Of a DNA stretch of 64,000 bases, positions 12,501 through 55,205 are shown in pieces. The notes below the pieces were generated by a model. That model saw only the letters and a program-made list of their open reading frames with translations, was not told where the DNA came from and searched no databases. The stretch comes from Amanita rubescens (Eukaryota > Basidiomycota > Agaricomycetes > Agaricales > Amanitaceae). Numbering within the stretch: the stretch's first letter is position 1; the number at the start of each line of letters is the position of its first letter. The stretch is taken from NCBI GenBank assembly GCA_015039365.1, contig WION01000157.1, forward strand, positions 55,045-119,044, written 5' to 3'. A program made the translations under genes and the position numbers.

Positions 12501-13103
12501 TGCGAGCGCTTGAGATGCTGATGTTTTCGCTTGGATCCAAAGGTGATCAGTCTCGAGATCTTCGTCCTCATCTGCGTTCAATTCTTCTTCTTTTTGGATA
12601 TACCGAAGGTACATTTCGGTTTCTTCGTCGTAATCAAACGTAGTTTCTTCTTCCGGATCGATCTTCCTTTCGTCGGGGAATCTAACTGTTCCTTCAGACC
12701 AATCTATTCTGGGGTTGATTTCTCGGAGCCAAGGTAATCCTAGTATCAGTCGTTGATCGCCTAGTCGTGTGACATAAAACCAGTCTTTAAACCGGTTGTT
12801 TTCGATGTTATAGCTTATCTGGATTTTATACCGTATATCTCCAGACTTGTTATTTGTTCCGTCCACATTTCGCACTGGGATGGGTTTCTTTAAGCGAGTG
12901 ATTTCGTTCCAATTGACGAGTGAGCTATCGACGAATTTTCCTTGTGCGCCTGAGTCGATAAGGGCTTTGGTTTCAGCGGTTTTTAGATTCGAACATTTGG
13001 TAATGGGAATGGTGATTTTATTTCTGGATATAGAAGATACTGTTACACCATTTATACATAGTTGTTCGTCTTCAGAGACGACGGACGCTGATTCATCGTC
13101 GTC
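9522..13103 (-). CDS. pol: Pol polyprotein of gypsy element 1
   Basis: Open frame of about 1,193 codons without an upstream ATG. Visible in order: aspartic protease (ALIDSGAQG, then ILGLPWL); reverse transcriptase with YIDD near residue 400; RNase H (FLLETDAS, HCDHKNLSYY); integrase zinc domain (HHDPVVMGHPG...CALCQQMK); integrase core with MDFITDLP, SDRGPQFTS and the Glu of HPQTDGESER; C-terminal chromodomain (FLVKWKGYPTSDNSWE). It lies in the -1 frame relative to Gag, but the -1 frame has a TGA at 13106-13104 two codons after the T5 run at the gag end. Either this copy is slightly damaged, or expression relies on another route such as readthrough or reinitiation. The chromodomain is known to steer integration to modified chromatin in this clade. 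Confidence 0.95.
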   Translation of the reverse strand, partial: DDDESASVVSEDEQLCINGVTVSSISRNKITIPITKCSNLKTAETKALIDSGAQGKFVDSSLVNWNEITRLKKPIPVRNVDGTNNKSGDIRYKIQISYNIENNRFKDWFYVTRLGDQRLILGLPWLREINPRIDWSEGTVRFPDERKIDPEEETTFDYDEETEMYLRYIQKEEELNADEDEDLETDHLWIQAKTSASQALAHEHEDKSTKVELPPEYDKWRRVFDKQTSERFPISRQWDHAIDLKEGFKPKVAKNYPLSIHEEQLMNKWVDEQLKKGYIRPSQSPQASPFFYVAKKEKGELRPCQDYRYINSWTKRNAYPLPLVSDLLLKLRKAKYFSKLDLRWGYNNVRIKKGDEWKAAFTTNRGLFEPTVMLFGLCNSPSTFQTMMNEYFRDMIAEGWLVVYIDDMLIYGANEEETRERTKQVLQRLKENDLFLKLEKCKFVAKEVEFLGMIVKEGKIMMDPVKLAGISKWPEPKTVKQIRSFLGFANFYRKFIGNYAEIVAPLTELTKKTVPFRWDAECQKAFDTLKEKFLEEPVLVMPDPTKPFLLETDASNWAVGAVLKQRGSDGELHPCGFISHRLSDTEQRYQVYDRELLAIKKAFETWRHLLKGSPHTIMIHCDHKNLSYYKHPQKMTARQSRWWQEITEFDIKLEHVPGSKLIQADALSRRPDHINEEEAKAKEIPQTMISDDMVIAAINVSWADKITELLPQDKFAKVVIDGLKHGKLPLRSKFNDWKNDNNIIRYQGRVYVPQNEELRNEIIKSHHDPVVMGHPGRLKTLELIRRDYYWPGMTTTVSKWVEGCALCQQMKVNTHPITPGLMPIKSHATRPFEQVSMDFITDLPIIDGFDSVLTVVDQGLTKGVIFIPCKKSFTAMDTANSYINDVYKRYGLPTTLISDRGPQFTSKVFEEICKIFGINHRKSTAFHPQTDGESERLNQELETYLRLYCVDHPKQWKDHLPLAEFAHNQRIHQSTKMTPFEIMFGIEPVAIPTAFPRINVPAAEDRFKVLTQIRDEALAAHELARQLMTQRVKGKSPAFKEGDLVWLDSRNLKTGQIRKFSPRREGPFKIEKILGPVTAKLELPPRWKIHPVFHVSLFTPYHENETHGPNFTRPTPDLIDNKEEYEIETIVSHRRKGNQWQFLVKWKGYPTSDNSWETEENLEHSEETLNEYKEQHGITAIIPTTHKSRKRRS

Positions 13104-20488: not shown

Positions 20489-22225
20489 GTTACTGGCCAC
20501 GTTGTCAAAACGGATTGGAGAGCTCCACCGAATAGAGCTACACGAGATCGTAAAGGGAACTATATTCTTGACGGATACTACGTCAGACTAAACGGTACAA
20601 AACGAATCTGGGAAGATACAGGAGGAAATCCAGTTAAAGAACAAGAATTCTGGATACCACAAAAAGAAACTAGACCTCCGAACGAATCATATTATTATTT
20701 CGCAGATCTATATCTTCAGGAACAACACATCAGATTCGATCACCTCACAGAACGTTGGATAGCATCCGAAACACAAGAATTTGTCCCTAACGAATACTTC
20801 AACACCCCCATTTGGATAAAGGGGACCGTTGACGCTCTACCAGAGAACTTAAGACCGAAAACTCTCCCTTCCATACAGACAAAAGGCAAAAAGAAAGCAA
20901 AATTTGGCCTAAACGATAGTGAATCCGAGAAAGAAGGAGAAACAGATCAAAAACCCGATCTATCCCTTGATTTTCTCAGTGACCTTTCAGTTGGAACGAC
21001 ACCAACACCTGCCCAACAACCGACCAATCCCGAATCAGGTCCTTCGAACCCTGAAGAAGAAAAGGACGAAGAAGACCCGTTTGACTCTGACAGAATCGAA
21101 GTAGACGAACCTAAACCCGATCCAACTCCACCACGCAGAGATCCATCACCCCCACCATCACCAAGAATGTCTGGAGGAAGTACAGACCCTATACCCAACC
21201 CACGAACCCCTAGTCTCATCGGAGATCTCCCTGAATTCAAAGGGAAGCGAAAGGATGCCAATACGTTCATAGAAGATATCGAAATCTTCTTTGACATGAA
21301 TCCTGAACGGATGAATACAGACCGTTTAAAGATCCTTGCTGCCCTGAACAAGATCTCAGATGGAGCTAGACAGTGGAAAAAGAATAAATTAGCGGAGTTA
21401 CGAAAATCACGCGCTACCATTGAAGGAGGCGTCACAAGACCCGCTTTATTCGATGACTGGGAAGCATTCAAACTATCATTCTTGACAGATTGGGGAGAAG
21501 TTGATCCAAGCGGAAATGCATACACAAAAATTCTCAATCTACAGAACAGATCGTCCATGAAAGGAAAGAAACAGATGACCTTGCCTAATTACGTAAATCA
21601 GTTCAAGGAACAAATCACGAAAGCAGGAATCGAAGGAGAAGCAGCATTCCATATGTTCGGAAAAGGACTTACAGCACCCGAGTTCGAAAAAGCAATGCTC
21701 ATGAACCCAAAAACATTACAAGATTGGTACGACATTGCTATCAAACTCGACAACATCCGAACCCGTTCATACGCTTACTCCCCCCGATCTGGAAATGGTC
21801 ATTCATCATCCTCTCATAACGACGAATCATGGGCTATGCAGATCGATCATAAATTTCTAGAACAAGAAGACGACCCAGAACTAGAACTTATGATCAGATC
21901 TATGACCAAAGAAGAAAGAGAACGCTACATCAAAGACGGTTTATGTTTTATCTGCGGAATCAAAGGACACATGTCAGGACAATGCCCGAAGAAGAAAAGA
22001 AACAAAGGGAAAGGCCGATTTAAAGGAGGGAGGAAAAGAGGATTCACGCCCAAACGTCACATTCGAGCCACATCAAATGATGGTGACGGAAATTGGGAAG
22101 AAGAAGAAGTCCGAGAGTCTAAACCAAATTACACCAAGAACATCCGAGCGCTGATGAAAGGGATGTCAACCAACGAAAAGAATGATCTATTACTATCTCT
22201 TGCCGATGATAACGAGGATTTTTGA
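20489..22225 (+). CDS. gag: Gag of gypsy element 2 with ATG-less N-terminal extension
   Basis: Open from 20489, just after an in-frame TAG at 20486-20488 that would also serve as a splice acceptor (CCCGTAG). The first ATG is at 21167 (MSGGS), at the same place as in element 1; the core from there is 352 residues. The 226 codons before it include TPPN-like, FWIPQKETRPPN and LYLQEQ blocks that resemble element 1, followed by a Glu/Asp/Pro-rich linker. The core has the helical Gag region (WKKNKLAELR, FLTDWGEVDP) and a zinc knuckle CFICGIKGHMSGQC. The end GATTTTTGA overlaps pol and offers a T5 run for -1 slippage. Confidence 0.85.
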   Translation, partial: VTGHVVKTDWRAPPNRATRDRKGNYILDGYYVRLNGTKRIWEDTGGNPVKEQEFWIPQKETRPPNESYYYFADLYLQEQHIRFDHLTERWIASETQEFVPNEYFNTPIWIKGTVDALPENLRPKTLPSIQTKGKKKAKFGLNDSESEKEGETDQKPDLSLDFLSDLSVGTTPTPAQQPTNPESGPSNPEEEKDEEDPFDSDRIEVDEPKPDPTPPRRDPSPPPSPRMSGGSTDPIPNPRTPSLIGDLPEFKGKRKDANTFIEDIEIFFDMNPERMNTDRLKILAALNKISDGARQWKKNKLAELRKSRATIEGGVTRPALFDDWEAFKLSFLTDWGEVDPSGNAYTKILNLQNRSSMKGKKQMTLPNYVNQFKEQITKAGIEGEAAFHMFGKGLTAPEFEKAMLMNPKTLQDWYDIAIKLDNIRTRSYAYSPRSGNGHSSSSHNDESWAMQIDHKFLEQEDDPELELMIRSMTKEERERYIKDGLCFICGIKGHMSGQCPKKKRNKGKGRFKGGRKRGFTPKRHIRATSNDGDGNWEEEEVRESKPNYTKNIRALMKGMSTNEKNDLLLSLADDNEDF

Positions 22226-25200
22226 CAGTGGGACTCATGACAGTGGATGAAGTCTCAGACACACCAGATTCAACTCTCGATATATCTCATGTAACAGTAC
22301 AATCTATTTCGAAACGAAGATTATCTGTCCCTATCAAAGTTGAAACTGAAAACAACACTGAAAACCTCGTTGCCCTTGTCGACTGCGGAGCCGAAGGGAT
22401 ATTTATCGACAAAAGGATAGCACACAAATGGAGAAAACGAAAAACTCTACGACCAATTAGAGTTTATAACGTCGATGGCACTATAAACAAAGAAGGAGAA
22501 ATTGATGAACAATGTCTAATCACCTTCGAAATGAACGGAAAACGCATGACCGAATGGTTTTACGTATCAGCTATAGGAAAACAAACGGTTATACTGGGGC
22601 TTCCTTGGTTAGAGAAGCATAACCCTGACGTAAACTGGAAAGAAAAGACTCTAGAGTTCCGAGACTCTGAACAGGATAAGATCAAGGCATCACTTCGGAG
22701 CATCTGTCAACAGATTGACAGAATAGCTATGCCTGAAAGGGAAGAAGATCTCGTCATCGGATATTTGATGTCACACAAAGGATCACAGACGACAGATCAC
22801 GGATGGAACACGCATACATTTGAGGATATAGGAAGCTGGTCAGAAGACGAATACGACCAAGTAACTATCGCACGATATACACCAGCTCAACAAATGGAAC
22901 ACAAATACCATCAAACAGAGGAGGTTTACACGCTCCCTCCTGAATACTCGGCATGGAAAGATGTATTCGAGAAAAAAGCAAGTGAACGATTCCCGGAAAG
23001 CCGATCTTGGGATCACCAGATAGAACTTCGCGATGATTTCATACCAAAAAGAGGAAAAATCTATCCCTTATCTCCGAAACAGCAGAACACACTGGATGAA
23101 TGGATCAAAGAACATGTTGAAAAAGGCTACATCAGACCATCGAAATCACCGCAGGCATCGCCTTTCTTCTTTGTAGAAAAGAAAGAAGCACAAAAACTAC
23201 GACCCTGCCAAGACTATCGATATTTGAACGAATACACTAAACCAAACGCATATCCATTACCCCTTATCTCCGATCTTATGATTAAACTCAAAGATTCGGA
23301 ATACTTCACGAAATTGGATATCCGTTGGGGATATAATAACGTTCAAATCAAAGAATCTGACAGATGGAAAGCCGCCTTTATCACCAATCGAGGTTTATTT
23401 GAACCTAACGTCATGTTCTTTGGATTACGAAATTCACCAGCAACGTTCCAAGCTATGATGGACGATTATTTCAGGGATTTTACAGAAAAAGGATGGCTCG
23501 TCATCTACATGGATGACATGCTAATACACGCGCGCACTAAAGAAGAACTCGAGATTCGAACAAAACAAGTACTTGAACGATTACAGAAACACGATCTTTA
23601 CCTCAAGCTTGAAAAGTGTAAATTCGCTGCCAAAGAAGTTGATTTTCTAGGCACCGTCATATCCAAAAATACAATAAAAATGGACCCGATCAAACTTGCC
23701 GGAATTAGGGACTGGCCAACCCCTTCTACCGTTAAACAAGTTAGATCCTTTTTAGGATTCGGAAATTACTATCGAAGGTTTATTTTCGGATTCGCCCACC
23801 TCGCACGACCCCTGCACGACCTAACAAAGAAAAACAAATTATGGACATGGACCGCAGAATGCCAAGTCGCATTTGATCTATTAAAAGAACGCTTCACATC
23901 CGCGCCTGTCTTAATGATGCCCGACGTTAACAAACCTTTCATTCTACAAACGGACGCATCAGACCGCGCTATCGGAGCAGTTCTTATGCAGAAAGATGAC
24001 AATGGCGACTTACACCCATGTGGATACCTATCCCACGCTTTAACACCGACTGAAACACGATGGCAAATCTATGACCGAGAGTTATTCGCCATTTACTACG
24101 CTCTTTACAACGAATGGAGATACCTGCTTGAAGGAGCAGAACACCCTGTCATTATTCATTGCGACCACAAGAACCTACTCTACTATCGAGAACCACAACG
24201 TCTTACAAACCGCCAAGCACGATGGTGGAACGACTTGTCTCGATTTAATATTAAATTAACGCATGTTCCCGGAGCAAAACTAATAATAGCGGATGCCTTA
24301 TCCCGCCGACCCGATCATATGACAAAAGATGAACCAGAAGAGTTAATAACAATGCTCCCAAAAGAACTCTTTGTTCGCACGATCGCCGAAGATCTCCATG
24401 ACAGAGCAATAGAAATAACTGTCAAAGATGAATTCGCTCAATCAATCAAGAAATGCCTAAAAGAAAAAGGAACACCGCCTTTACGAACAGCCCTTTCTGA
24501 TTGGACCCTCGACAACGAATTAATCCTATACAAAGGGAAATCTTTTATCCCTCCTGACACCGATCTTCGCCGAGATATTATTAGAGATTTTCATGAATCA
24601 CCAACAAGCGGACACCCCGGTTTCTTCAAAACACTAGCCTTATTAAAGGAATATTACTGGTGGCCATTAATGTCTAAAATGGTTAAACAGTTTATTGACG
24701 GATGCACGGCATGTCAACAAATGAAATCGAATACTCACCCTACCGCCGCACCCCTGATGCCAATCAAGTCTCACGCACACCGACCCTTCCAACAAATAAC
24801 CATGGATTTCATAACCGACTTACCCATAAGTGACGGTTTTGATTCTATCTTTATCGTGGTCGATCAAGGACTTACAAAGGGAGTAATTCTCATGCCTTGT
24901 AATAAAACTGTCACCGCCGACGAAACCGCAGACCTCTACATTCGGAATGTATTCAAAAATTTCGGTTTACCCGACATCATGATCTCCGATCGAGGACCAC
25001 AGTTCGCATCACATGTTTTCAACGGCATAATGGACTCATTAAAGATCAAACATAAAATGAGTACCGCCTTCCATCCACAAACTGATGGACAAACGGAACG
25101 ATATAACGCCGAATTAGAAGCTTATCTCCGAATATTCTGTGCCTATGAACCAGATACTTGGAACAAGATGATACCAATAGCACAATTCGCGCATAATTCA

Positions 25201-25833
25201 CGCACTCATGAAGCGTTGAAACAATCACCCTTTCAATTGATGTATGGAACATCCCCGGTTGCACTTCCCCTTGTCTCAAATAAGACAAATACACCAACCG
25301 CCGATAACCGCATCAACTCTCTGTTCCGCGCACGAGAAGAAGCACTCGCCGCACATGATCTAGCACGAGCTAAGATGATGGAAAGAACAACGAGAAAGAC
25401 TAAACCGTTCAAAGTCAATGACAAAGTATGGTTAGAGTCTAGGAACCTGAAGATTCCTTATCAGAGCAGAAAGCTCGCACCTAAACGAGAAGGTCCCTTT
25501 TCCATCAAAGAAGTCTTAGGACCAGTGACATATCGTCTCACGCTACCAAGACAATGGAAAATTCATAACGTATTCCACGCCGCCTTACTAACGCCGTTCA
25601 AAGAAACTTCCTTTCACGGAATAACAGAAACAAGGCCCCCTCCCGATCTGATCGAAGGAGAAAAAGAATACGAAGTGGAAGCACTGCTTGCACATCGCAA
25701 GTTTAGAAGGAAATTACAATTCCTAGTAAAGTGGAAAGGCTATGACACCAGCGAAAACACATGGGAACCAGAAAATAACTTGACGCATATGGAAGACCTC
25801 CTTCTAGAATATAAAAGACGAAGGAAACTCTGA
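22222..25833 (+). CDS. pol: Pol polyprotein of gypsy element 2
   Basis: 1,203 codons in the -1 frame relative to gag, opening with TTG at the overlap; slippage on TTTTT would fuse it to Gag. Domains in order: protease (ALVDCGAEG with D54, then ILGLPWL); reverse transcriptase with YMDD near residue 429 (a Met variant of the usual Y-[IV]-D-D); RNase H (FILQTDASD, HCDHKNLLYY); integrase zinc finger (HESPTSGHPG...CTACQQMK); core D, D and E in MDFITDLP, SDRGPQFAS and HPQTDGQTER; C-terminal chromodomain (FLVKWKGYDTSENTWE). There are no stops. It should give enzymes for reverse transcription and integration. Confidence 0.95.
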   Translation: MTVGLMTVDEVSDTPDSTLDISHVTVQSISKRRLSVPIKVETENNTENLVALVDCGAEGIFIDKRIAHKWRKRKTLRPIRVYNVDGTINKEGEIDEQCLITFEMNGKRMTEWFYVSAIGKQTVILGLPWLEKHNPDVNWKEKTLEFRDSEQDKIKASLRSICQQIDRIAMPEREEDLVIGYLMSHKGSQTTDHGWNTHTFEDIGSWSEDEYDQVTIARYTPAQQMEHKYHQTEEVYTLPPEYSAWKDVFEKKASERFPESRSWDHQIELRDDFIPKRGKIYPLSPKQQNTLDEWIKEHVEKGYIRPSKSPQASPFFFVEKKEAQKLRPCQDYRYLNEYTKPNAYPLPLISDLMIKLKDSEYFTKLDIRWGYNNVQIKESDRWKAAFITNRGLFEPNVMFFGLRNSPATFQAMMDDYFRDFTEKGWLVIYMDDMLIHARTKEELEIRTKQVLERLQKHDLYLKLEKCKFAAKEVDFLGTVISKNTIKMDPIKLAGIRDWPTPSTVKQVRSFLGFGNYYRRFIFGFAHLARPLHDLTKKNKLWTWTAECQVAFDLLKERFTSAPVLMMPDVNKPFILQTDASDRAIGAVLMQKDDNGDLHPCGYLSHALTPTETRWQIYDRELFAIYYALYNEWRYLLEGAEHPVIIHCDHKNLLYYREPQRLTNRQARWWNDLSRFNIKLTHVPGAKLIIADALSRRPDHMTKDEPEELITMLPKELFVRTIAEDLHDRAIEITVKDEFAQSIKKCLKEKGTPPLRTALSDWTLDNELILYKGKSFIPPDTDLRRDIIRDFHESPTSGHPGFFKTLALLKEYYWWPLMSKMVKQFIDGCTACQQMKSNTHPTAAPLMPIKSHAHRPFQQITMDFITDLPISDGFDSIFIVVDQGLTKGVILMPCNKTVTADETADLYIRNVFKNFGLPDIMISDRGPQFASHVFNGIMDSLKIKHKMSTAFHPQTDGQTERYNAELEAYLRIFCAYEPDTWNKMIPIAQFAHNSRTHEALKQSPFQLMYGTSPVALPLVSNKTNTPTADNRINSLFRAREEALAAHDLARAKMMERTTRKTKPFKVNDKVWLESRNLKIPYQSRKLAPKREGPFSIKEVLGPVTYRLTLPRQWKIHNVFHAALLTPFKETSFHGITETRPPPDLIEGEKEYEVEALLAHRKFRRKLQFLVKWKGYDTSENTWEPENNLTHMEDLLLEYKRRRKL

Positions 25834-32350: not shown

Positions 32351-33637
32351 ATGTCTAACGACTTGACGATTCCTAGTTCCATTCCCGTTTTGAATGGAAC
32401 TAACTATAAAGAATGGGAACGCATGATGCGTTTCCTATTACAAACAAAGGGACTGTTTCAGTACCTTAAAGATGATTATATTCATCCCCCGCGGATTACT
32501 CCGCTACAACAGTTCTTCATTGATACAGGTGTTCGTGCAGCCATAACTGCACAACCTGCGGTAGCAGCAGTTGCCGCACATGGTGCACATCCAGCAACAC
32601 CTGCAATCCCAGCCGTTGAGGGTGAACCGGCTATCACCCAACAAATGGTTGATGATGCAAAGGCCGTCAAAAAGGCTTTTGAAGATTGGGTCGTCGAGGA
32701 TGATCGCATCCTCGGATCCATAAACATGAAATGTTCTGCTACTATACAGCAGATCAATTCAGAAGTAAATGCCGCCAGAGTTTTATGGCGGAATTTAGCA
32801 AATCAATACGGTGTGACAACGTCTGCCGGTATATATAATGACTTCCAATTAGCCGTTACTTGGAAGTTCCAAGACAAAAAGGATCCCACACAATCCTTAA
32901 ACGACCTCCTCGCCATAATAAACCGCTTATCGTCTAGCGGAATCGTATTGCCTGAAAATGTACAGGCAATGATTGTACTTTCAGCTGTCCCCCGTCATTG
33001 GGACAATTTTGCTGCTGTGGTTCTAGCAACAACAGAACCATCGGATCTTACGATCCAAGGGATACTTCCCTTAATCCAGAATGAGTGGCGCCGAAGGCAC
33101 CCTGAATCTGCCGCGACGGCAAATACGTCGCAACAACAGCAGCAACCATGGCAACAAGTACGTGGTCGAGGACGAGGACGTGCTCGCGGACGTGGCCGCG
33201 GAGCAGGTCGTGGACGTGGGGGGAGGCCTTATTCTAGGCCTCCACAAGGCGCTCAGACACCGGCTTCAAATCCTCCTCCGGCAAATCAAAATTGGCCGGG
33301 TAAAGTTGAGGGCCAAACACGTGGTCCTAACTGGGAGAGGAACCGAGAACGCCGAAAGGCAGATGCAGCCGAGAAGAAGGCTGCCAAAGCCGCAGAACAT
33401 ACTATGAGTTCTGCACATACCGTTGCCCGTATTGGGCCTTATGACATCACTGAGCCAGTTGCCGGCTCCAGCAAAGGCAAACAAAGAGAAAAGGATGAAC
33501 TGGACTTTGAGTCCTATAAATCGAACCGAGGAATGGGGATATCGTCAGACGATATCGACTATAAAAATATGGATATAGATCAGGAAGCTGAACTATATTA
33601 TGACGATTATTACTATGAGGATAACGGCGAACAATGA
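32351..33637 (+). CDS. gag: Copia Gag, RG-rich, without zinc knuckle
   Basis: 428 residues from ATG, one base after the leader ORF stop. The N-terminus has the copia Gag start (SIPVLNGTNYKEWERMMRFLL), followed by the UBN2-type helical domain (VLWRNLANQYG, NDLLAIINRL). It then lacks the usual CCHC knuckle and instead carries an Arg-Gly repeat near residues 270-295 (RGRGRGRARGRGRG-like), a plausible RNA-binding substitute. The C-terminus is acidic with Tyr (YYDDYYYED). It overlaps pol by 38 bases. Confidence 0.9.
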   Translation: MSNDLTIPSSIPVLNGTNYKEWERMMRFLLQTKGLFQYLKDDYIHPPRITPLQQFFIDTGVRAAITAQPAVAAVAAHGAHPATPAIPAVEGEPAITQQMVDDAKAVKKAFEDWVVEDDRILGSINMKCSATIQQINSEVNAARVLWRNLANQYGVTTSAGIYNDFQLAVTWKFQDKKDPTQSLNDLLAIINRLSSSGIVLPENVQAMIVLSAVPRHWDNFAAVVLATTEPSDLTIQGILPLIQNEWRRRHPESAATANTSQQQQQPWQQVRGRGRGRARGRGRGAGRGRGGRPYSRPPQGAQTPASNPPPANQNWPGKVEGQTRGPNWERNRERRKADAAEKKAAKAAEHTMSSAHTVARIGPYDITEPVAGSSKGKQREKDELDFESYKSNRGMGISSDDIDYKNMDIDQEAELYYDDYYYEDNGEQ

Positions 33638-36600
33638 GGCAGCAATGAAAATGGTGTTCCCTAAATTGGGACATCATCGTCGTACTATAAATTCCTTCTT
33701 TGAACAATCTGTACTATATGATAGTATAAATTATAAAGAAAATTTAGACGAAAACTGCCTCGTAAGAGATAAGTCGTGTGACACTGCCATTTATAATGCA
33801 AATATGATTGAACGATCATATAATATTGGTAACATGTTTAAGAAACCTTTTACATGTTTAGCGGTCAATAAAAGAAAATTTAAGGATAAAGTACATCCGA
33901 CATGTCCCTGTCCGGAATGTGTTGAAAAACGTACTGGAGATACACTATGGATGTGTGACTCCGGTGCATCTGACCACTTTACCTTTAGTAGGAAAGACTT
34001 CTCTGAATACAGAGAATTTCCTGCAAATGAAAACCACAGTGTTAAAACTGCTAATGGTTTAGATCGTCTTGAGGGACTTGGCACAGTTATTCTTGAACAC
34101 AAGTTATCCACAGGAGAAGTAACACTCGTAAAGCTCTTCCCTGTCCTCTATATGCCACGGGCAACTGCACGCTTGATTTCAAACGGCAGATTAATCCGAC
34201 AAGGATTAACTTGTAAACAAGATGAAAAGATGGTAGTCTTTTCCTTTACAGACTCGGGTAGAACGTGTATCGAAGGACATTACCTTATGCCCGATGATAC
34301 ATTAGTTTACGCTCGAGGCAGGATTATTATAATGAATCCTACACTGGTTTCTGGTCCTGGTTTAGCCAACAGGAATTCTAAATTAATTCTTGGAAGACCG
34401 ACAAAGAAACCAAACGCAGAGTCTATAGAAAAACTATTAGACTACGAGACCTGGCATAAACGTTTTGGTCATCCATCTAACGAAGTCTTTTCAAAGATAC
34501 CGTTAAATGTTAATGGATGGAAAGAAGTTACACTTCCAGAAGGAAAACTACGTTGTGAAGGTTGTCTAAAAGGCAAAATGAAGGCAAAACCTTATAAACT
34601 GTCTTCGAAGAGAGCGACTCGTCCCTTCGAGTTACTCCATATGGATCTTATGACCGTACCGGCCATATCTTACCACAAATACAAATATATTGGTGTTATC
34701 GTTGACGATTTCACCTCGTATACGTGGATTGGTTTATTAAAAACCAAAGATCAAACTCTAGAATATTTTACCGGATGGTATAATGAGTTTGTAGATCCCA
34801 AACAACCTATTTCTCACCTCCGTTCTGATCGAGGGGGGGAATTTGTAAATAAAGCCTTTGAAGAATTCCTTAAATCTAAAGGAATTAAACATCAACAGAC
34901 AGCTCCTTACACCCCACAACAAAATGGTCGCGTCGAACGCATGAATCAGACTTTGTCAGACAAAGCTGAGGCTATGCGATTAGACGCAGGATGTCCGAAA
35001 TCTTGGTGGGAGTTCTCATTCAGAACGGCTGTGCATGTGTACAACCGCACTCCCCTAAAACGGACTAAATGGAAGACCCCTCTGGAAAATCTTCTTAATA
35101 AAAAACCAGACGTATCATACTTTCGAGTATTTGGATGTGAAGCCTGGGTATTTATCCCTGATCAACGGAGACCGGATAAGCTGTCCGAGAAATCCGTTTT
35201 ATGTACTTTTGTAGGATATGAATCAGGAACCAAAGGCTATAGGTTCATGACGTCGACAAACACACTGGTTATATCCTCCCAGGCTACATTCTTTGAAAAC
35301 AGGTTTCCGCGCAAAGGAAAGACTGCAGATATAATTACTGAAGATCTTGGTCCGATCTGGGAGGCGATTCCTCAAGAGGAACCTAACTGCCCTCCACAAA
35401 ATTTGGATTTAGATGACTTACTCCCAGAGAACCGTAGACGTTCTCCGAGCAGAAGACGCTCACCTGGTTTGAATCGAAGGGGTGCATCTCCTGATAGACA
35501 GCAATCAGACCCTTCTGATGATTCAAATGATGATGATGACGGTGATGAATTTGCCGATCGTCAAAGAGATTTTTTGGATGATAATATCCAAAGGCAAAGG
35601 GAAGAAAGAGAACAAGAAAGACGTGACAATTATCGTAGACAACGCGATGATTGGAAAAGGGGTCAAGGAATTGATAAACAGTCTCGTTTACGAGATCAAT
35701 TCAAACGTCAAATGAGTGATATGTTTAAGAAACGTAAAACTCCTGAACCCTTTAGACGTACTCCCTCTCCACAAATAAAAGAGGAGACTCCTGTTCCTTC
35801 TAGACCTATAACACCGATACCATATGTATCTAGGTCACCTTCGCCTCGTAGTCCTATGGATGAAGATAATCCCTTCTCTTTGAATCAAAGAGATCAAGAT
35901 GAAATAGAAAACCCATTTATGACGGATCGAGAATTTGATCAATTTGAACAACGTCAAAGAGATCGTTTTAGAGAATTTGCTCAGAGACCTAGACCTCCTC
36001 CACCGATCATATCTGATCCAGGTCCACCCTCTGTACAAATAGGTCCTCGCCGTTCTGGTCGTTTTCCAGTTCCAAGGGTACAAAGAGACAACGCATATGG
36101 AGATAAAACTCCTGCACAGATAGAAGCGGAAATTCAGCAAAAGCGAGATGCTTTAAGAGAACAGTTAAAAGATAAAACTCCGAGTTCTTCGACTCAGGAT
36201 CCACCGTCAGCAGACAGGAACCCTGATAGAATGAATGAATCTGCTTCTCTACTTAAAGAAATCTTCGCTTTAAAGTCTGAATTAAAATCTGCGGAACATG
36301 ATCATTTAACTCGAATGATTAATGAATCTGGAAATGAATTCCTTCATTTTCTTCTAAAAGCGGCTGTTCCCCTTGTCGATAATATTCCATATGACTATAG
36401 AGATATATCTAAAATGCGCTCCAGTAATCCTCAATTGTATAAACAATGGAAGATTGCAATGGATGACGAATTTAAATCTCTTCAATCTAGAGATATTTGG
36501 GAGTTGGTTGATCTTCCAAAAGGACGAAACCTAATCAGATGTCGTTGGGTTTTCGACTTAAAAACCGATGGACGCAAAAAAGCTCGCGTCGTAGCTAAAG

Positions 36601-38150
36601 GTTTTAGTCAACGTCCCGGATTAGATTACGACGAAACATTCTCGCCTGTAGCGAGATATGAAACAATCCGAATACTTCTGGCCACATCAGTGCTTGAAAA
36701 CTGGGATATACAAGCCCTAGATGTAAAAACTGCCTTCTTATATGGCGATCTTGATGAAGATATTTACATGGCCCAGCCAGAAGGTTTCGTTGTAAAAGGA
36801 CAAGAATCTAAAGTATATAGGCTGAGGAAAGCCATATATGGATTGAAACAGGCATCATATGCCTGGAATAAACAAGCTGATAAATCGTTGAAATCATTGC
36901 ATTTCGAGCGATGCTTGTCTGATTCTGGCGTTTACGTTCGTAAAGGCAAGAATACTATCACGATATGCATATTGTATGTCGATGATATACTCTTTATGGG
37001 AAATGATGATTCCACCATCGCATCCATTAAAAAGAAATTTATGGAGATGTGGGAATGTCGTGATCTAGGAAAGATCAAAGAGTATTTACGAATCCAAGTC
37101 AATTACAACCGTGATTTAGGATTCTTAGTTATAGATCAAGGTCCTTATGCCTTGAAGGTTGTTAAGCGATTTGGACTTGAAGATTGCAAGTCTGTACGCA
37201 CACCGTTACCTGCTGGGTATGCTCCTATAAAGAATGAAGGAGAATGCACACCACAGGAACGTTCTTATTATCAACAGATAATAGGATCCCTTCTATATCT
37301 AGCCTTAGGAACTAGGCCTGATATAATCTATGCAGTAATTTTGATGTCCCAATTTTCATCAAACCCGTCCCAAGAACACATTCAAAAAGCCTTGTATATA
37401 GTCAAATACATTGCTCATACCTTAAACGTCAAAATCGTTTATAGCGCCAAAGGCAATAATAAATTTAGAGCCTACGCTGACGCTGACTGGGCCGCTGATC
37501 GTAATACACGACGATCTATAAACGGTTATGTCTTAATGTTAGCTGGTGGTGCAGTAGCTTGGACGAGTAGAAAACAAAAGACTGTAGCCTTGTCTTCGAC
37601 TGAAGCAGAATACATATCTTTATCAGATGCTGCAAGACAAATTGCATGGGTTGAAAATCTATTTTACGAAATAGGTGCACCCATTAAAAGCATCTTACTT
37701 AGCGTAGATAACCAAGGCGCTATATTTTGGGCACAAAATCCTGCACAAGAACATCGTTCCAAACACATCGATATTCGCTATCATTTCGTTCGCGAGTTGA
37801 TCGAGACTAAAAAGGTAGTCCTCGAATATATACCAACAAACGAACAGAATGCGGATCTCATGACTAAGAATTTATCCTTTGAAAAGGTCAAATTCTTTAG
37901 AGAACGATTAGGACTTTCCTTAGAAGAGTATCCGACTTCTACAAATGCATTAATCAAAAGACCAGATCGATTAGAGACTGAAGAAATCCGTGATCTGACG
38001 AAATTTATTCTTGATTGGCAAAATCTTGAATTAGATGATATTGATCGTCTATCACACAAGAAGTTGATGGAACTTCTTGATGGTCTTATTGATCAACAAG
38101 AATCGGATATAGATCCCTTCTATGATGAAAACATCATAGACTTTAAATAA
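33600..38150 (+). CDS. pol: Copia Pol polyprotein
   Basis: 1,516 codons from ATG in the +1 frame relative to Gag. Domains in order: protease with MCDSGASDH near residue 120; integrase zinc finger (WHKRFGHPS...CEGCLKGK); integrase core with LLHMDLM, SDRGGEF and the Glu of PYTPQQNGRVERMN; a long charged linker (about 615-940) with RS, Arg/Glu and Pro-rich stretches; reverse transcriptase (FDLKTDGRKKARVVAKGF, DVKTAFLYGDL, YVDD near 1125); RNase H (ADADWAADRNTRRS, SSTEAEY, HRSKHIDIRYHFVRE). Integrase before reverse transcriptase is the Ty1/copia order. There are no stops; it looks functional. Confidence 0.95.
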   Translation: MTIITMRITANNEAAMKMVFPKLGHHRRTINSFFEQSVLYDSINYKENLDENCLVRDKSCDTAIYNANMIERSYNIGNMFKKPFTCLAVNKRKFKDKVHPTCPCPECVEKRTGDTLWMCDSGASDHFTFSRKDFSEYREFPANENHSVKTANGLDRLEGLGTVILEHKLSTGEVTLVKLFPVLYMPRATARLISNGRLIRQGLTCKQDEKMVVFSFTDSGRTCIEGHYLMPDDTLVYARGRIIIMNPTLVSGPGLANRNSKLILGRPTKKPNAESIEKLLDYETWHKRFGHPSNEVFSKIPLNVNGWKEVTLPEGKLRCEGCLKGKMKAKPYKLSSKRATRPFELLHMDLMTVPAISYHKYKYIGVIVDDFTSYTWIGLLKTKDQTLEYFTGWYNEFVDPKQPISHLRSDRGGEFVNKAFEEFLKSKGIKHQQTAPYTPQQNGRVERMNQTLSDKAEAMRLDAGCPKSWWEFSFRTAVHVYNRTPLKRTKWKTPLENLLNKKPDVSYFRVFGCEAWVFIPDQRRPDKLSEKSVLCTFVGYESGTKGYRFMTSTNTLVISSQATFFENRFPRKGKTADIITEDLGPIWEAIPQEEPNCPPQNLDLDDLLPENRRRSPSRRRSPGLNRRGASPDRQQSDPSDDSNDDDDGDEFADRQRDFLDDNIQRQREEREQERRDNYRRQRDDWKRGQGIDKQSRLRDQFKRQMSDMFKKRKTPEPFRRTPSPQIKEETPVPSRPITPIPYVSRSPSPRSPMDEDNPFSLNQRDQDEIENPFMTDREFDQFEQRQRDRFREFAQRPRPPPPIISDPGPPSVQIGPRRSGRFPVPRVQRDNAYGDKTPAQIEAEIQQKRDALREQLKDKTPSSSTQDPPSADRNPDRMNESASLLKEIFALKSELKSAEHDHLTRMINESGNEFLHFLLKAAVPLVDNIPYDYRDISKMRSSNPQLYKQWKIAMDDEFKSLQSRDIWELVDLPKGRNLIRCRWVFDLKTDGRKKARVVAKGFSQRPGLDYDETFSPVARYETIRILLATSVLENWDIQALDVKTAFLYGDLDEDIYMAQPEGFVVKGQESKVYRLRKAIYGLKQASYAWNKQADKSLKSLHFERCLSDSGVYVRKGKNTITICILYVDDILFMGNDDSTIASIKKKFMEMWECRDLGKIKEYLRIQVNYNRDLGFLVIDQGPYALKVVKRFGLEDCKSVRTPLPAGYAPIKNEGECTPQERSYYQQIIGSLLYLALGTRPDIIYAVILMSQFSSNPSQEHIQKALYIVKYIAHTLNVKIVYSAKGNNKFRAYADADWAADRNTRRSINGYVLMLAGGAVAWTSRKQKTVALSSTEAEYISLSDAARQIAWVENLFYEIGAPIKSILLSVDNQGAIFWAQNPAQEHRSKHIDIRYHFVRELIETKKVVLEYIPTNEQNADLMTKNLSFEKVKFFRERLGLSLEEYPTSTNALIKRPDRLETEEIRDLTKFILDWQNLELDDIDRLSHKKLMELLDGLIDQQESDIDPFYDENIIDFK

Positions 38151-38172: not shown

Positions 38173-38579
38173 TGTTAAATATAGAATTATATTTATAGAA
38201 TGATTAACTACTGATTGACTACAATCAATGATACTCATATCGCTCACGTCATCCTTTATGTATGACATAGAGATGACATCATAATGACTTCATTATGATA
38301 TCATGGTGACATCATGATAGACTCATGATCACACCTTATGGTGTGCTTAGCACGCCATATCTTCTCATCTATACTATACGCTTACACATATGTAGATACA
38401 TATTTGTTCTCTCTTAGTATATAAACCTGTCCTGTATCGTAGAATAGGACAATCCATTCTCTTCCTCTTACTATCACTACAACGCCGAAGGGTAGTGCTA
38501 AGATCATATCGCAATAGGTAAGCTATTGCACCTGCTCATGCTGTGGACACGCTCTCGCGTAGACCTGTCTTCTTCGTCA
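38173..38579 (+). repeat. 3' LTR of the copia element
   Basis: 407 bases, followed by the target duplication CAACC at 38580-38584. Confidence 0.95.
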
Positions 38580-41500
38580 CAACCGATCCAGCGTCAGCCT
38601 TCAACTGTAACCAGCCCGGATGATCGGATACATTCCCCTTCCCCCCCTCCTCCCCAACCGCAGCATAGTGACGATGAAGATTATTATTTTGGTGGCACAG
38701 ATGATTTCCGAGGTTGGGGTGATGCTCAGCCGGACCCCGAGCATGACGATGATCTGGCATCGGCACCTCGGAATTTAAGGCGCTGTTCATCAAATCGAGA
38801 AGCAACTGCCAATGAATCTATGGGACGTAAATGGAATGTCGAATTCCATCCCCAGATCAATGGTGAGTTTCCTACTTTCATTACTAACGAAATACGTGCG
38901 CTGATACAAGACGCTGGCAGGTCGCCCTTGCAATGCTCAAGGGGAATTTCTTCCAGATGGGTCACCCCCTCCACCCTGGGAGGATCCTGATCCCGACGAT
39001 TTCTATCCATTTGCTGACCGAGCAGACTTTGAGATGGCCGAGCTACTTTACAAGCGCGCGCAAATGTCAAAGACCGAAATAAATGACCTAATGCAAATAC
39101 TAGCGCGAAAACTCACTGAACAGTATGATCCGGATGCAGAGCCGCCCTTCATCAATGCAGAACACTTGTACGCAACAATCGACGCAATTACCCATGGCGA
39201 CGTTCCCTGGGAATCTTTCACTGTATCTTACAACGGCGAAATAAACGAGGAGAATGATGCGCCGTGGAAGCATAGGAAATATGACATATGGTACCGCGAT
39301 CCTCTCAAAGTCTTGAGCCGACAGCTCTCAAATCGAGATTTCGCAACCGAAATGGACTTTGCTCCAAAAATAATCTCAGATGCGAACGGAACTCGTCGGT
39401 ACGAAGATTTCATGTTGGGTAGATGGGCTTGGCGTCAAGCCATTCGTAAACTTTACAATTTTGCCGAAGTTGGCTCATTTATCTCCTTTTAGGACATCCT
39501 TGCTGAAGACACGGGAAATCACGGCGCAACATTTTGTCCTACTGTCGCTGGCAGTGACAAGACAACGGTCTCGGTAGCGACAGGCCAAAACGATTACCAT
39601 CCATTTTATCTATCAAATGGTCTCATACATAATAATGTTCGACGTGGGCATCGCAATGGGGTTTCGTTAATCGGCTTTCTAGCTATTCCAAAAAGTGAGT
39701 TAAATTTCCTGTAATTGCTTCGTAAAACTAACATACTCATAGCGGACAGAGAACACGAAGACTCCGACGAATTCCGCAAGTTTCGGCGCCACCTCTTCCA
39801 TGAATCGCTTCGCCAAATACTCGAACCGCTTTTACCTTCAATGACTAAACCGACAGTTTTGTGGTTTGCAGACGGTCATTACCGTCGGGTGATCTTTGGT
39901 CTTGGGCCGTATATCGGAGACTATCCGGAACAAGTACAGCTTGCTTGTATCGTGCAAGGATGGTGCGCCCGGTGAGCAGTGTTTGAATTCTCTGTTTATC
40001 AGCCTTAACTGTACACTGGTATAGATGTACAGCACATAACGACAACATGGATGGACCCAGAGGACGGCGAAGTCATCAACACACTGTGGCCTTGCGTGAA
40101 GCACTCTCCACTTGCAATTTATGGACAAATTATGGAATTGTAAACGGAATAATGGTACGATTACTTTCACCTTTTATTCAGAGTGTTTATCCAATCTACC
40201 ATACAGCCATTTACCGCTCATTTTCCACGTGCCGATATCCACGAGTTGCTATCACCCGATATACTTCACCAGCTTATCAAAGGAGTATTCAAAGACCACT
40301 TAGTGACCTGGGTCGGACAATACATCCGCATAGCGTATCCGGCTGACGCTAATGCACTTTTGGCAGAAATAGACCGGCGGTACGTAGTCCTCTTCCCAAA
40401 TTACTGTTTTAGTAATCAATCTACTTCAGAGTCGCAGCCGCTCCTCATTTTCCCGGTCTACGACGGTTTAAGGAAGGGAGAGGGTTCAAACAATGGACAG
40501 GTAAAGATTCAAAGGCGTTCATGAAGGTGTGTATAAGATCTTTCAGATGTGTTGTGCCGTTCAGTCGTTTCTCCAGGTATATCTACCCGCAATTTCTGGA
40601 CTTGTACCACCACGCATGGTTCAAGCCATCCGATACTTTACCGAGTTCTGCTACTACGTACGACGCTCAGTGCTAGATGACGATGACTTGGATCGACTCG
40701 ACGAGCTGCTGGCCAAATATCATGAAGCGCGGGAAGTTTTCATTGAAGAAGGGGTCCGAGAAAATTTCAACCTTCCTCGTCAGCACTCCCTTACACATTA
40801 CCGGGAACTTGTCATGGAATTCGGCGCCCCAAATGGCCTGTGTTCATCAATTACCGAATCGAGGCATATTGATGCAATCAAGGGACCATATAAGCGCAGC
40901 AGTCGCAATGAGCCGCTCTCAGAGATACTCGTTATCAATCAGCGATTGGATAAAATAGGAGGCGCCCGTGTCAACTTCACAGCGTGCGGGATGCTGCACG
41001 GCTCAGGATTTCAAAATGCGCCACCTCCGAAATTGCCTGACGACGACGACGATGACGGAGGCCCAGTAGAAGATCAAGACATCGTCAGTGAGATTTCGTT
41101 GGCTCGCAAAGCTAGTGAGTCATAACTATTATGAAGGTTTGCAAATCATTTATGGTATTACAGTTCACGCGTACCCACGTAATATCAACGATCTTGCCAA
41201 ACATTTGAATCTCCCGCTACATGAGCACATTTCAAGATTTCTGTATGAACGAGAACACCCTGAATCGGATATGCCGATTGAGGACGTGCCGATTGAGCTA
41301 TGTCCAACATATTCTGAAAATATTCTCGTCTACCCATCAGCCATCGCTACGTTCCGTGCCCCGAGCGATATTTCTGGTGTCGGTGGGATGTATCGTGAAC
41401 GTATACGGTCAACAGAATCATGGCGCAAAGGTCCAGAGCGTCGCGATTGTGTTTTCGTTGAGCAAAACCCCGATTTACCAGGATTTCGGGGACTATATGT

Positions 41501-41822
41501 TGCGCAAGTCCGTCTTATTTTCAAGATACGATATAAGAGGCGTTCTATACCATGTGCACTTGTTGCATGGTTTTCTCAGATTGGCAACGAGCCATGTCCT
41601 GACAGTGGCATGTGGCAAGTTGAGCCTGATTTTAATGCAGACGGGGAACGCTCTATGTCGGTGATACATCTTGATGCAATATTTCGAGCTGCGCACCTTG
41701 TCGGAATCGCAGGTGAAAATTTTCTTCCTTACCATATGAAACACACAGACAGTTTAGATTCATTTCGTGCTTTCTTTGTGAACAAATTCATTGATTACCA
41801 CTCGCATGAAAGTATTTTTTAA
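38580..41822 (+). CDS. Plavaka-type transposase, main part (multi-exon)
   Basis: Continues the zinc-finger exon at 30365-30492. After a Pro/acidic linker (SPSPPPPQPQHSDDEDYYF) come hallmark blocks of basidiomycete Plavaka transposases: HPQING joined over an intron (GTGAGT 38863 to CAG 38920) to RPCNAQGEFLPDGSPPPP; PFADRADFEMAELLY; GSDKTTVSVATGQNDYHP; SLIGFLAIPK; FADGHYRR; IGDYPEQVQLACIVQGWC; RQHSLTHYRELVMEFGAPNG; ITESRHIDAIK. Another clear intron is 41115-41163. The stop is TAA 41820-41822. Plavaka belongs to the large basidiomycete transposase set described together with KDZ elements. Some exon joins (near 39450-39500 and 40140-40200) are uncertain by eye. Confidence 0.85.
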
Positions 41823-51680: not shown

Positions 51681-51904
51681 TCGACTTGAGGTGATTTGTC
51701 ACCCTGTCCGGCAGTAGTTGGACTTAGAGCGCCAGAAATGTCCTTGAGGCCTCGAATTTCTTCTTGAAACCACACGTTGACTCGGTACAGCGAATACGGA
51801 GGCGGACAACAAAGAGGAGCCGAATATGGCAGTCGCGGCCCGGTTGCTCGGACCGGCGATCGCTTACATCATCATCAGACGGCTCTCATGAGTACAGTAA
51901 CAAA

Positions 51905-53587
51905 ATGCACATCGCTCACGCCGTTGCACGTCACTGCATTTCAAAACGTCTTTACCTGGTTGGTCGCATCCATAATGGCCCTCCACGGAAAGGACTACTC
52001 AAGTATGTCGACCTCGCCGAAAACCGGGACGGGACTGTGGGCGGCGGTTTTCTAACCTCCCTCTTGCGCAAGGCAAAAAACTCACGAGAAGTACGAGAAA
52101 TCGTTAACGAGGCCACCCGCAGATTCGAAGGCGCTGTCCCCTGGCAATTGCTATCGGCAGCCGCCCACGTCAGTGCTGGCCCCTCTGTCGACGACCCACA
52201 GTTGGCGGGCACCCTCCTCGCAAGCATCTCCCCCAAGGACATCCCTTACGTCTGGGAAGGGGTTCTTAGGGCGGTACTCGGAAACGCATCAAGGCACAAG
52301 AATGGTGCAGTGGCACTCAACGCCTTTCGCCTCCTCGCGGCCCGAAATACTCCCCTGACCACCACGGACTACGCCCGCATCATTCATAGTGGCATCGACT
52401 CAAGTGAAGAAGAGGCTCGACTCGTGGACGTGCTGCTCCAGCAACCTTGTCCAACCGACCTTGACCCACGCACCATCGGTGTACTGCTCAAAGTCTGCCA
52501 TGTACGTCACGACTTGGACTTGGCGGGCCGAGTATGGCAGTGGGCTGCACCACGACGGCACGTTAGGCACGGAGATCAGGATTTGTGCTACGTCACGGCT
52601 CAATACCTGCTTTTGTGCGGCCGAGCGGGCAATATAGCGCTCGCGCATCAGGTCTGGCAGGAAGCTAGGAACATGGGCCTTGCTCACCTCCCAGTTGTGA
52701 TTGGAAGCATGTTGTCAGTACTTGCTATGCATGGTGCCGACGGCGAGACGCTAGAACTACTCAAGGACATTCCTCCCGCTTCCCTTAATTCGTACATGGT
52801 GACTGCGGCGCTCACCGCCTTCTCCCATTCGGGCAACGTCGATGCAGCCCACGCGTTGTTGGACCAAGTAGAATCCCAAACTCCTAGTGCAAGCATACAG
52901 TCGTACACCGCCCTCGTGGACGGCTACGCGCGCAGTGGGGACTTTGCATCTGCTCTCGCGATCATCGACCGCGCAAAGTGCCAAAGTAGGGTTGGAGAGG
53001 ATGACGTGATGTGGATGACAGTGCTCGGTCCCTGTCGTCGTTTCAAAAACCTTCCAGTCGCACAGACCGCATTTGCAGCCATTCAGAGGCTAGGCTCCCC
53101 TGAACACCGTGCATCGGCATACGTCCTCATGTCTGACATCTACAATGCCTGTGGTGACACCATGGCTGCTCTCCGCATGCAACAGGAGAGACTGAAGAAG
53201 GGACTCATGAAAGAGCGGGGTGCGGTCACGCTAACGATGGACAACGGCGAAACACATGTGTTCTATGTACGGGAGATCCCGCCTGCGCTCGTATCTGCCA
53301 CACGTGCTATAGAACAGAAGCTCAAGGAATGGAGTCGCTGGTTAGGGTTATGTGGCATCAGTGATGAGTCCATCCGTTGCCAGCACAGCGAGAAACTCGC
53401 GCTTGCATATGCTGTCACGCAGGGCATGAGACAAATTACCCTACGGAAGAACCTTAGGATATGTGATGCCTGTCATGAAGCCTCGAAGCAGATTACAATT
53501 TTTGAATCCATTTCAATCCATCATTGGGACAGGTCCAGGCTGCATGTTATGAAGGATGGGAAGTGTTCTTGTCATGATCGATACTGA
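51905..53587 (+). CDS. PPR protein with plant-like E and DYW domains (predicted C-to-U RNA editing factor)
   Basis: 560 residues from ATG 51905; the frame is open back to 51764 without another ATG. The N-terminus (MHIAHAVARHCISKRLYLVGR) is basic and could target mitochondria. At least six helical-hairpin PPR repeats follow (for example SYTALVDGYARSGDFASALA, AQYLLLCGRAGNIALAHQVW). Then an E-type region (AYVLMSDIYNACGDTMAALR...LKKGLMKERG, ETHVFYVREI) and a C-terminal DYW deaminase: H494-S-E496, N-L-R-I-C520-D-A-C523-H, R-L-H547, C554-S-C556-H-D-R-Y. These are the zinc and catalytic residues of plant editing factors; the last tripeptide is DRY instead of DYW. No introns. This architecture is standard in land plants and very rare in fungi. 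Predicted role: site-specific cytidine deamination of organelle RNA. Confidence 0.9.
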   Translation: MHIAHAVARHCISKRLYLVGRIHNGPPRKGLLKYVDLAENRDGTVGGGFLTSLLRKAKNSREVREIVNEATRRFEGAVPWQLLSAAAHVSAGPSVDDPQLAGTLLASISPKDIPYVWEGVLRAVLGNASRHKNGAVALNAFRLLAARNTPLTTTDYARIIHSGIDSSEEEARLVDVLLQQPCPTDLDPRTIGVLLKVCHVRHDLDLAGRVWQWAAPRRHVRHGDQDLCYVTAQYLLLCGRAGNIALAHQVWQEARNMGLAHLPVVIGSMLSVLAMHGADGETLELLKDIPPASLNSYMVTAALTAFSHSGNVDAAHALLDQVESQTPSASIQSYTALVDGYARSGDFASALAIIDRAKCQSRVGEDDVMWMTVLGPCRRFKNLPVAQTAFAAIQRLGSPEHRASAYVLMSDIYNACGDTMAALRMQQERLKKGLMKERGAVTLTMDNGETHVFYVREIPPALVSATRAIEQKLKEWSRWLGLCGISDESIRCQHSEKLALAYAVTQGMRQITLRKNLRICDACHEASKQITIFESISIHHWDRSRLHVMKDGKCSCHDRY

Positions 53588-54110: not shown

Positions 54111-55205
54111 CTACCAACCTACGTTACAACTTACAAAGTCATCATCATCGTAATGATCCCGATAGGCATCAACCCCAAAGAACGGATGTGTGCTAATATA
54201 TCGAGTAGATGCAGTTGGGGTAAGCACTAGACGGTTGAACATCTCAACTCCTATATGGCCGTCACAATGCAATACTAAACGCTCCATATGTGGAAGGACG
54301 ATCGGCGATTCTGTATCAGGTAGTGTGGAAAGTTTAGCATCCGAGGTAGGCTTCAAAGCGCAATTCACGAGGGACGTTCCTTGGCGTAAGATTACGTCGA
54401 AACATGTCATGGATGGTATACCAAATTGAAGGCGAAGTTCCTTCAAGTTATGCCAAGGGACAGCTGGGATGAGCTTGTCAACATTCACTGCGAAGCAGTT
54501 GCAGAGGGTGAGGTCCACCAGGTTTGGTAGCCGGACTGGAAGCTGCAATGTAGCTCGAACACGGGAGAAAAACTCCATGTCGTAATATCTGCGGTACCGG
54601 TCAGAATTGTAACACCCAATATGCAGTAATTGCAAGTGTGACAAGTGCTCGGGTGGGATTTCGCTGAGAGATTCTATTTCGCTCCGTTCGAGTGCAAGGC
54701 GTAGTTTCAAAAATGGGAATGGCGCAACTAGCCGTTGCACTACGTCCGAATGTAAGCCATTACTGTTCAGGTGGTCGATCATTAGTTCCGCCCTGGGAAT
54801 GGAGCCTCCGCGTATTAGCCACAGGCGGTATATGCGGTGTTTGAGGAGGTTCAAACAGATATCTATCTGAACACGGCTCCTCGGCAACATTCTCCCAGTA
54901 TGGTACTTTATTCGCAACGGGTACCGGGACCAGACACGAGGCATCTCCAATATGATGTGCCGCCATGCAGAGCACACATATGACAAGATCATGGCCGGAT
55001 GAGTACGGATTGTAAGACGAGCACCAGGCTCTAACTGGCAGACGAGATCGAAGATGATTCGCAACACATCTTCGGGGAGCTCAGTGATGTGGGACGCGAG
55101 AGCCTGAGCCGTTTCGTATCGTGCGATTTCTTCATTATGCTCAGCGACGAGCGCTTTTCTGTTGAACGTCTCCTCTTTGGATGAGTTGTCTACCTCGCTT
55201 GCCAT
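54111..55205 (-). CDS. F-box protein
   Basis: 364 residues, single exon from ATG 55205. A short N-terminal helix (ALVAEHNEEIARYETAQALA) precedes an F-box (ITELPEDVLRIIFDLV...LSYVCSAWRHIILEMPRVWS), the typical layout of the expanded basidiomycete F-box family. The remainder is Leu-rich (LQLPVRLPNLVDLTLCNCF, HNLKELRLQFGIPS, LPHMERLVLHC) and probably forms irregular leucine-rich repeats for substrate recognition in an SCF ubiquitin ligase. The C-terminus is acidic (YDDDDF). A decayed copy lies at 43860-44160. Confidence 0.85.
   Translation of the reverse strand: MASEVDNSSKEETFNRKALVAEHNEEIARYETAQALASHITELPEDVLRIIFDLVCQLEPGARLTIRTHPAMILSYVCSAWRHIILEMPRVWSRYPLRIKYHTGRMLPRSRVQIDICLNLLKHRIYRLWLIRGGSIPRAELMIDHLNSNGLHSDVVQRLVAPFPFLKLRLALERSEIESLSEIPPEHLSHLQLLHIGCYNSDRYRRYYDMEFFSRVRATLQLPVRLPNLVDLTLCNCFAVNVDKLIPAVPWHNLKELRLQFGIPSMTCFDVILRQGTSLVNCALKPTSDAKLSTLPDTESPIVLPHMERLVLHCDGHIGVEMFNRLVLTPTASTRYISTHPFFGVDAYRDHYDDDDFVSCNVGW

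Follow-up and report, generated by a model that had tools for sequence, protein, structure and literature searches.

How does a mushroom, Amanita rubescens, come to carry a gene that looks like a plant RNA-editing factor of the E/DYW PPR class, and what might its product do? DYW-type editing is usually regarded as a plant trait, with scattered cases in protists. The gene lies in the window analysed here, a stretch of 64,000 nucleotides of contig C65 (positions 55045–119044), from an assembly of 75.7 Mb in 786 contigs. Our preferred reading, to which we give a probability of roughly 0.7, is that it encodes a mitochondrial C-to-U editing factor from a single PPR-DYW family, found in agarics and Balamuthia, which has been passed horizontally between agarics.

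An uninterrupted ORF had been claimed for this locus, and the claim holds. The frame encodes a protein of 560 residues (Table 1), and a stop-free run of this length has a chance of ∼7e-12, by a simple independence estimate at the stop-triplet frequency of the window. Upstream of the ATG the frame stays open as far as position 51764; the start in relatives likewise lies at MH-I-A-H or close by, and the haplotype copies described below carry indels immediately 5′ of the ATG (51905). GC content is 55% in the gene versus 46% in the window. The annotated protein F5887DRAFT_848187 (partial) lacks residues 1–37 and 30 internal residues, the latter as if removed as a predicted intron, and is otherwise identical to the window protein.

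Table 1. Features of the window, with strand and basis of assignment
Feature	Position	Strand	Basis and remarks
PPR-DYW gene	51905..53587	+	560 codons + stop, intronless; ORF, Pfam, alignment to 9kfx, genome scan
N-terminus, residues 1-33, probable mitochondrial presequence	51905..52003	+	Composition: 7 R/K, no D/E before D36
PPR-like helical hairpins, residues 80-366, mostly divergent	52142..53002	+	Pfam, model; limits from predicted helices, by eye
P2-like motif, residues 267-295	52703..52789	+	Hand-assigned; code residues G267, N295 identical in 14/14
S2-like motif, residues 335-366	52907..53002	+	Hand-assigned; code residues T335, D366 identical in 14/14
E1 and E2-like motifs, residues 367-438 (MWMTVLGPCR..., AYVLMSDIYNACG...)	53003..53218	+	Alignment to synthetic PPR-DYW 9kfx
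PG-box-like strand region + DYW deaminase domain, residues 439-560	53219..53584	+	
HSE: H494 (zinc ligand), E496 (catalytic)	53384..53392	+	Sequence, family alignment
CDACH: C520, C523 (first zinc), H524 (second zinc)	53462..53476	+	Sequence, family alignment
H547, C554, C556 (second zinc)	53543..53572	+	Sequence, family alignment
LTR retrotransposon pol-type long open ORFs	9522-12875, 22222-25833, 33600-38150	-, +, +	Pfam

The original prediction described a C-terminus built on the E/DYW plan, and each of its blocks (AYVLMSDIYNACG, KKGLMKERG, HSE, CDACH, RLH and CSCHDRY) was found in the protein. Pfam recognizes DYW_deaminase at 56.7 bits (cut-off 24) and PPR at 29.5 bits (cut-off 25), the latter above cut-off solely at residues 333–356 of the hairpin tract. 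Both families are matched in all 14 members of alignment A1, in which 13 of the 21 family members described below are aligned with the window protein. The zinc and catalytic residues are present, as had also been claimed: H494, E496, C520, C523, H524, H547, C554 and C556, whose roles we take from plant DYW structures, are identical in 14/14 members, including those at 49–51% identity. A structure model shows the DYW fold, with low pLDDT at residues 1–33. The E region aligns block by block with the synthetic protein 9kfx, and the Pfam E_motif is matched in one of the 14 members, not that of A. rubescens. Several details depart from the canonical form. The PG-box region reads RGAVTLTM...HVF, the C-terminal D-Y-W triplet is altered to DRY (DRY, GRY, DHY or GYY across the family), and the DYW domain has a two-residue gap relative to 9kfx. 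These data confirm a genuine PPR protein of the DYW type with an E-like region, encoded in a fungal genome.

Two homologue searches of 5.8 billion proteins, with about 8,000 candidates scored in each, list the same 21 family members, followed by six plant proteins at 22–29% identity (best E value 3.2e-20, first search); the second search adds one alga, matched over 4%. Among the matches listed, full-length members 49–94% identical to the A. rubescens protein come from agarics and Balamuthia and include further sequences. Identity to the window protein is 87% for Hebeloma cylindrosporum and 82% for Amanita phalloides, and 65–94% for the remaining sequences apart from three at 49–51%. The closest named relative outside the fungi, again among the matches listed, is from the amoeba Balamuthia mandrillaris (P0016; 586 aa, on a contig of 85,327 bases), with 65% identity over 95% of the length. 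By region, identity to the Balamuthia protein is 62% (residues 30–366), 74% (367–438) and 72% (439–560); given the first of these values, the likeness extends through the PPR tract. On sequence grounds, membership in one orthologous family with agarics and Balamuthia best explains the A. rubescens gene.

A conflict between these identities and taxonomy was noticed before Amanita monophyly was tested. We built a tree of 20 rows from 18 of the 21 members together with two A. rubescens copies; the three members left out were the partial A. rubescens model (P0010) and two short sequences, P0017 and P0018. In this tree A. rubescens, Hebeloma and other sequences form a clade (support 100/99) that excludes A. 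phalloides, and distances from A. rubescens are 0.172 for Hebeloma, 0.279 for A. phalloides and 0.790 for Balamuthia. Monophyly of Amanita is rejected at a cost of 64.2 log units with unnamed rows placed freely (p-AU 0.0004), and at a cost of 17.5 log units on the five named rows (p-AU 0.0019). A three-row version gave p-AU 8e-37, or 2.8e-7 without three long rows, but is unfair in that it bars unnamed rows from Amanita. The Balamuthia homologue branches outside all fungal-type rows, and contamination of that assembly is a formal possibility; the AU test allows either it or P0015 as the first branch below the fungal clade (p-AU 0.069).

As a control we used a 726-aa ordinary PPR gene on contig C331, a weak match and the sole non-allelic one in a scan of the A. 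rubescens genome, which contained no second PPR-DYW paralogue. Relatives of the control gene follow taxonomy: A. polypyramis (67%), A. phalloides (66%), A. inopinata (60%) and A. thiersii (50%) precede Lyophyllum (47%) and Gymnopilus dilepis (41%). In the control tree (our gene plus 22 of 35 matches, 13 being left out), the Amanita rows group together (100/100); A. phalloides lies at 0.504 and Gymnopilus at 2.035 from the A. rubescens gene. Gymnopilus and Hebeloma belong to the suborder Agaricineae and Amanita to Pluteineae. Applying the ratio 2.035/0.504 to 0.279 gives an expected Hebeloma distance of ∼1.1 under vertical descent, compared to 0.172 observed; even Balamuthia (0.790) is nearer than a vertically inherited Hebeloma gene should be. 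One caveat here is that the calculation has a thin basis, a single control gene in which Gymnopilus stands in for Hebeloma.

Topology and branch length agree in setting the DYW gene against taxonomy. One could instead suppose that the gene descended vertically in the Agaricales and was lost many times, or that an old duplication left different copies in A. rubescens and Hebeloma versus A. phalloides. Loss is compatible with a patchy distribution, and evolutionary rates may differ from that of the one control gene. Presence in Amanita does look patchy: of the four Amanita species in the control list, A. phalloides alone is also in the DYW list, among the matches listed, although an annotation gap or limited candidates could mimic this pattern. 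We nonetheless consider such a history unlikely, given the short Hebeloma distance and the lack of a second paralogue in the A. rubescens genome; old paralogues, too, would be ∼1.1 apart across suborders. These comparisons support the view that the gene has probably passed horizontally between agaric lineages.

What would the protein do? Under our preferred reading, a nucleus-encoded protein would be expressed and imported into mitochondria, where its PPR tract would bind one or very few transcripts and its DYW domain would deaminate a single C, a few bases further downstream, to U; the family as a whole would move horizontally between agaric lineages. The N-terminus fits a mitochondrial presequence in most members, to judge by composition. 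Of the 19 members compared, 17 lack acidic residues ahead of the conserved GLLK/ILK anchor, the exceptions being Hebeloma (one) and Balamuthia (four); in this count the N-termini of P0019–P0021 are short or incomplete, P0019 being without a start and P0021 having only a few residues. By the plant PPR code, the T335/D366 pair presumably reads G, at –4, and the G267/N295 pair perhaps reads A, an assignment we take to be weak. These two pairs are identical in 14/14 members, and two other motifs checked vary. Two fixed pairs are too few for naming a target, and with divergent upstream motifs and most code positions variable, specificity is only putative.

RNA editing is a likely, predicted activity of this protein. 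The protein might alternatively serve in mitochondrial RNA binding, for stability or processing, with a deaminase that acts rarely or off coding sites. Consistent with this, the PPR code is degenerate in most motifs, the PG box and C-terminal triplet are altered, and we know of no editing site in fungal mitochondria. However, all eight zinc and catalytic positions are kept in 14/14 members, even at 49–51% identity, which points to selected catalysis. Such a role strikes us as quite improbable. The mitochondrial DNA is taken as missing from the assembly, since the COX1 and Proton_antipo_M (nad2/4/5-type) families have no match there. An A. rubescens mitogenome obtained from Mycocosm is mentioned in PMC13424474. 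Generic cox1, cob and cox3 queries against viral_contigs gave 6, 1 and 0 loci, respectively. Five intron-rich cox1 or cob loci on four contigs of this viral collection (L025–L029, IMG/VR) look fungal-mitochondrial to us, and L028 also carries what we take to be phage-like ORFs.

Where did the family come from? The original prediction invoked horizontal transfer, which is supported for the history of the gene among agarics, whereas the data do not favour a direct gift from a plant. Direct uptake from a land plant, such as a tree partner of the fungus, would accord with DYW proteins being typical of plants. In PMC4202320, as far as available, early land plants are argued to be the source from which DYW proteins spread horizontally, and Laccaria bicolor is listed as a carrier outside the plants. 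The accessible text of PMC11946409 leaves room for a plant ancestor of the clade formed by fungal and paradinid sequences. Yet the six plant proteins are just 22–29% identical, compared to 65% for Balamuthia and 49–94% across the family, and no close plant donor appeared among the about 8,000 candidates scored per search. We regard direct uptake as very unlikely; the whole family may have an older plant origin.

Within A. rubescens the gene lies on three contigs: C65 (the window), C568 (212,710 bases) and C497 (34,280 bases). These are collinear over ∼20 kb, with 90.7–99.9% identity per piece, and we read the three as haplotype copies. A dikaryon is expected to carry two copies, so one is too many. 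The C568 copy (L008) is intact and 98% identical in amino acids to the window protein. The C497 copy (L005) has a broken frame: over the coding stretch eight bases are inserted, at seven or eight places, none is deleted, and 25 substitutions separate it from C65; these defects reflect either uncorrected read error or decay. Between C65 and C568, 11 codons differ synonymously and 11 by replacement (dN 0.0087, dS 0.0303), giving a dN/dS of ∼0.29 between two haplotypes, a value based on only 22 differing codons. All replacements fall in residues 17–255 and none in 256–560. The latter segment (52670–53587) is protein-identical, although the haplotypes differ by several percent nearby; either strong constraint or gene conversion could account for this.

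The gene was also said to sit among host-like genes. The fungal setting is borne out, the host-like genes only in part. Pfam scans of 10 flanking ORFs identified three LTR-retrotransposon polyproteins, one match below cut-off only and six ORFs without a match. The polyproteins, all to the left of the gene, include two with chromodomain and RVT_1 (Ty3-like) and one with RVT_2 (Ty1/copia-like). ORFs at 38526–41822 (+) resemble, in our judgement, pieces of a Plavaka-like fungal DNA transposon, and the two of them scanned had no Pfam match. The ORF beside the gene (54111–55205, –) we take to be F-box-like, and it too lacks a Pfam match; related stretches occur at several other places in the genome at 66–78% identity. 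Among the matches listed, flanking DNA reaches at least 94% identity solely at the three gene-bearing contigs. Weaker matches elsewhere are at most 78% for the right flank and up to 90% over ∼240 bases for the left, and no empty insertion site was identified among them. A separate DNA search with the right flank (38 of 79 candidates scored) did not list C568 and C497, which direct alignment recovered. A family profile run against viral_contigs and prokaryote genome_contigs for a possible vector gave 11 and 29 pattern matches, with none confirmed for the few patterns used. Contamination by plant or protist DNA can be dismissed as a negligible prospect, given the ∼20 kb of collinear surroundings on three contigs, the adjoining retroelements and multi-copy ORFs of the A. 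rubescens genome, and relatives on a 1.97-Mb Hebeloma contig and a 660-kb A. phalloides contig.

The identity of recognition residues in two motifs across 14/14 members suggests one target common to mushrooms, amoeba and other members. Tentatively, and with the odds against it, one might go further and envisage a mobile single-target editing factor jumping among mushrooms and amoebae with recognition residues and target constant. If so, each recipient would have to possess the target already or receive it too. The target would be a site in a universal mitochondrial gene that repeatedly becomes C or, alternatively, would belong to a mitochondrial element (an intron, a homing-endonuclease gene or a plasmid) that is itself mobile among these hosts. 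On this view, fungal mitochondria would gain C-to-U editing by horizontal transmission. Under our preferred reading, the conflict in the Agaricales gene tree and the amoeba copy at 65% turn a scattered presence into testable horizontal spread of an editing factor, and pose the question of which target an incoming DYW gene finds in its new host. With one DYW gene per haplotype, a mushroom would offer about the simplest natural editing system, easily dissected.

In the literature searched, which leaves out most subscription papers, no link between DYW proteins and the ectomycorrhizal habit was found, and Balamuthia appears alongside DYW only as a reference-list entry. As far as is known, every fungal carrier named here (A. 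rubescens, A. phalloides, Hebeloma, Laccaria and Piloderma) is ectomycorrhizal. The original prediction saw a near-unique fungal case, which is superseded: according to the accessible text of a 2025 paper (PMC11946409), several Agaricales and Piloderma croceum carry PPR-DYW proteins. There, all fungal carriers but Piloderma are Agaricales; its sequence branched within Agaricales in a tree of 24 DYW domains and 92 positions, and may be horizontally acquired. Seven fungal proteins are predicted to be mitochondrial in the same source. Neither Amanita nor Hebeloma nor Balamuthia is named in its main text; the supplements may name them. According to the available part of PMC10532568, Coprinopsis cinerea and Ganoderma lucidum yielded no PPR-DYW orthologue. 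PPR-DYW genes in Laccaria, several Agaricales and Piloderma are thus already on record, as far as these sources go; new here are a full-length family spanning agarics and Balamuthia, the conflict of its gene tree with taxonomy, and constant recognition residues in two PPR motifs.

Among known systems, the fungal and paradinid proteins are closest in kind. They share with the A. rubescens protein an Agaricales host, the DYW domain and probably the two-residue deletion reported as common to fungal and paradinid DYW domains (PMC11946409, accessible text), which we think is the gap seen against 9kfx. Acrasis kona likewise has non-plant DYW proteins, and two mitochondrial C-to-U sites (atp6 and cob) are confirmed there; it has 12 DYW ORFs with a PG box (PMC4202320, as available), whereas A. 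rubescens has one gene per haplotype and an altered PG box. No Acrasis sequence is among the homologue matches listed. Moss DYW proteins suffice for RNA editing in E. coli, as the available part of PMC6397227 has it. With land-plant E/DYW factors (OTP86, synthetic 9kfx) the A. rubescens protein shares the order of PPR tract, E1/E2-like motifs and DYW domain, along with HSE, CxxCH, H...CxC and the DYW fold. It differs from them in its 22–29% identity, divergent PPR repeats, a PG box reading RGAVTLTM and C-terminal DRY, and in being encoded by one gene per haplotype where land plants have many.
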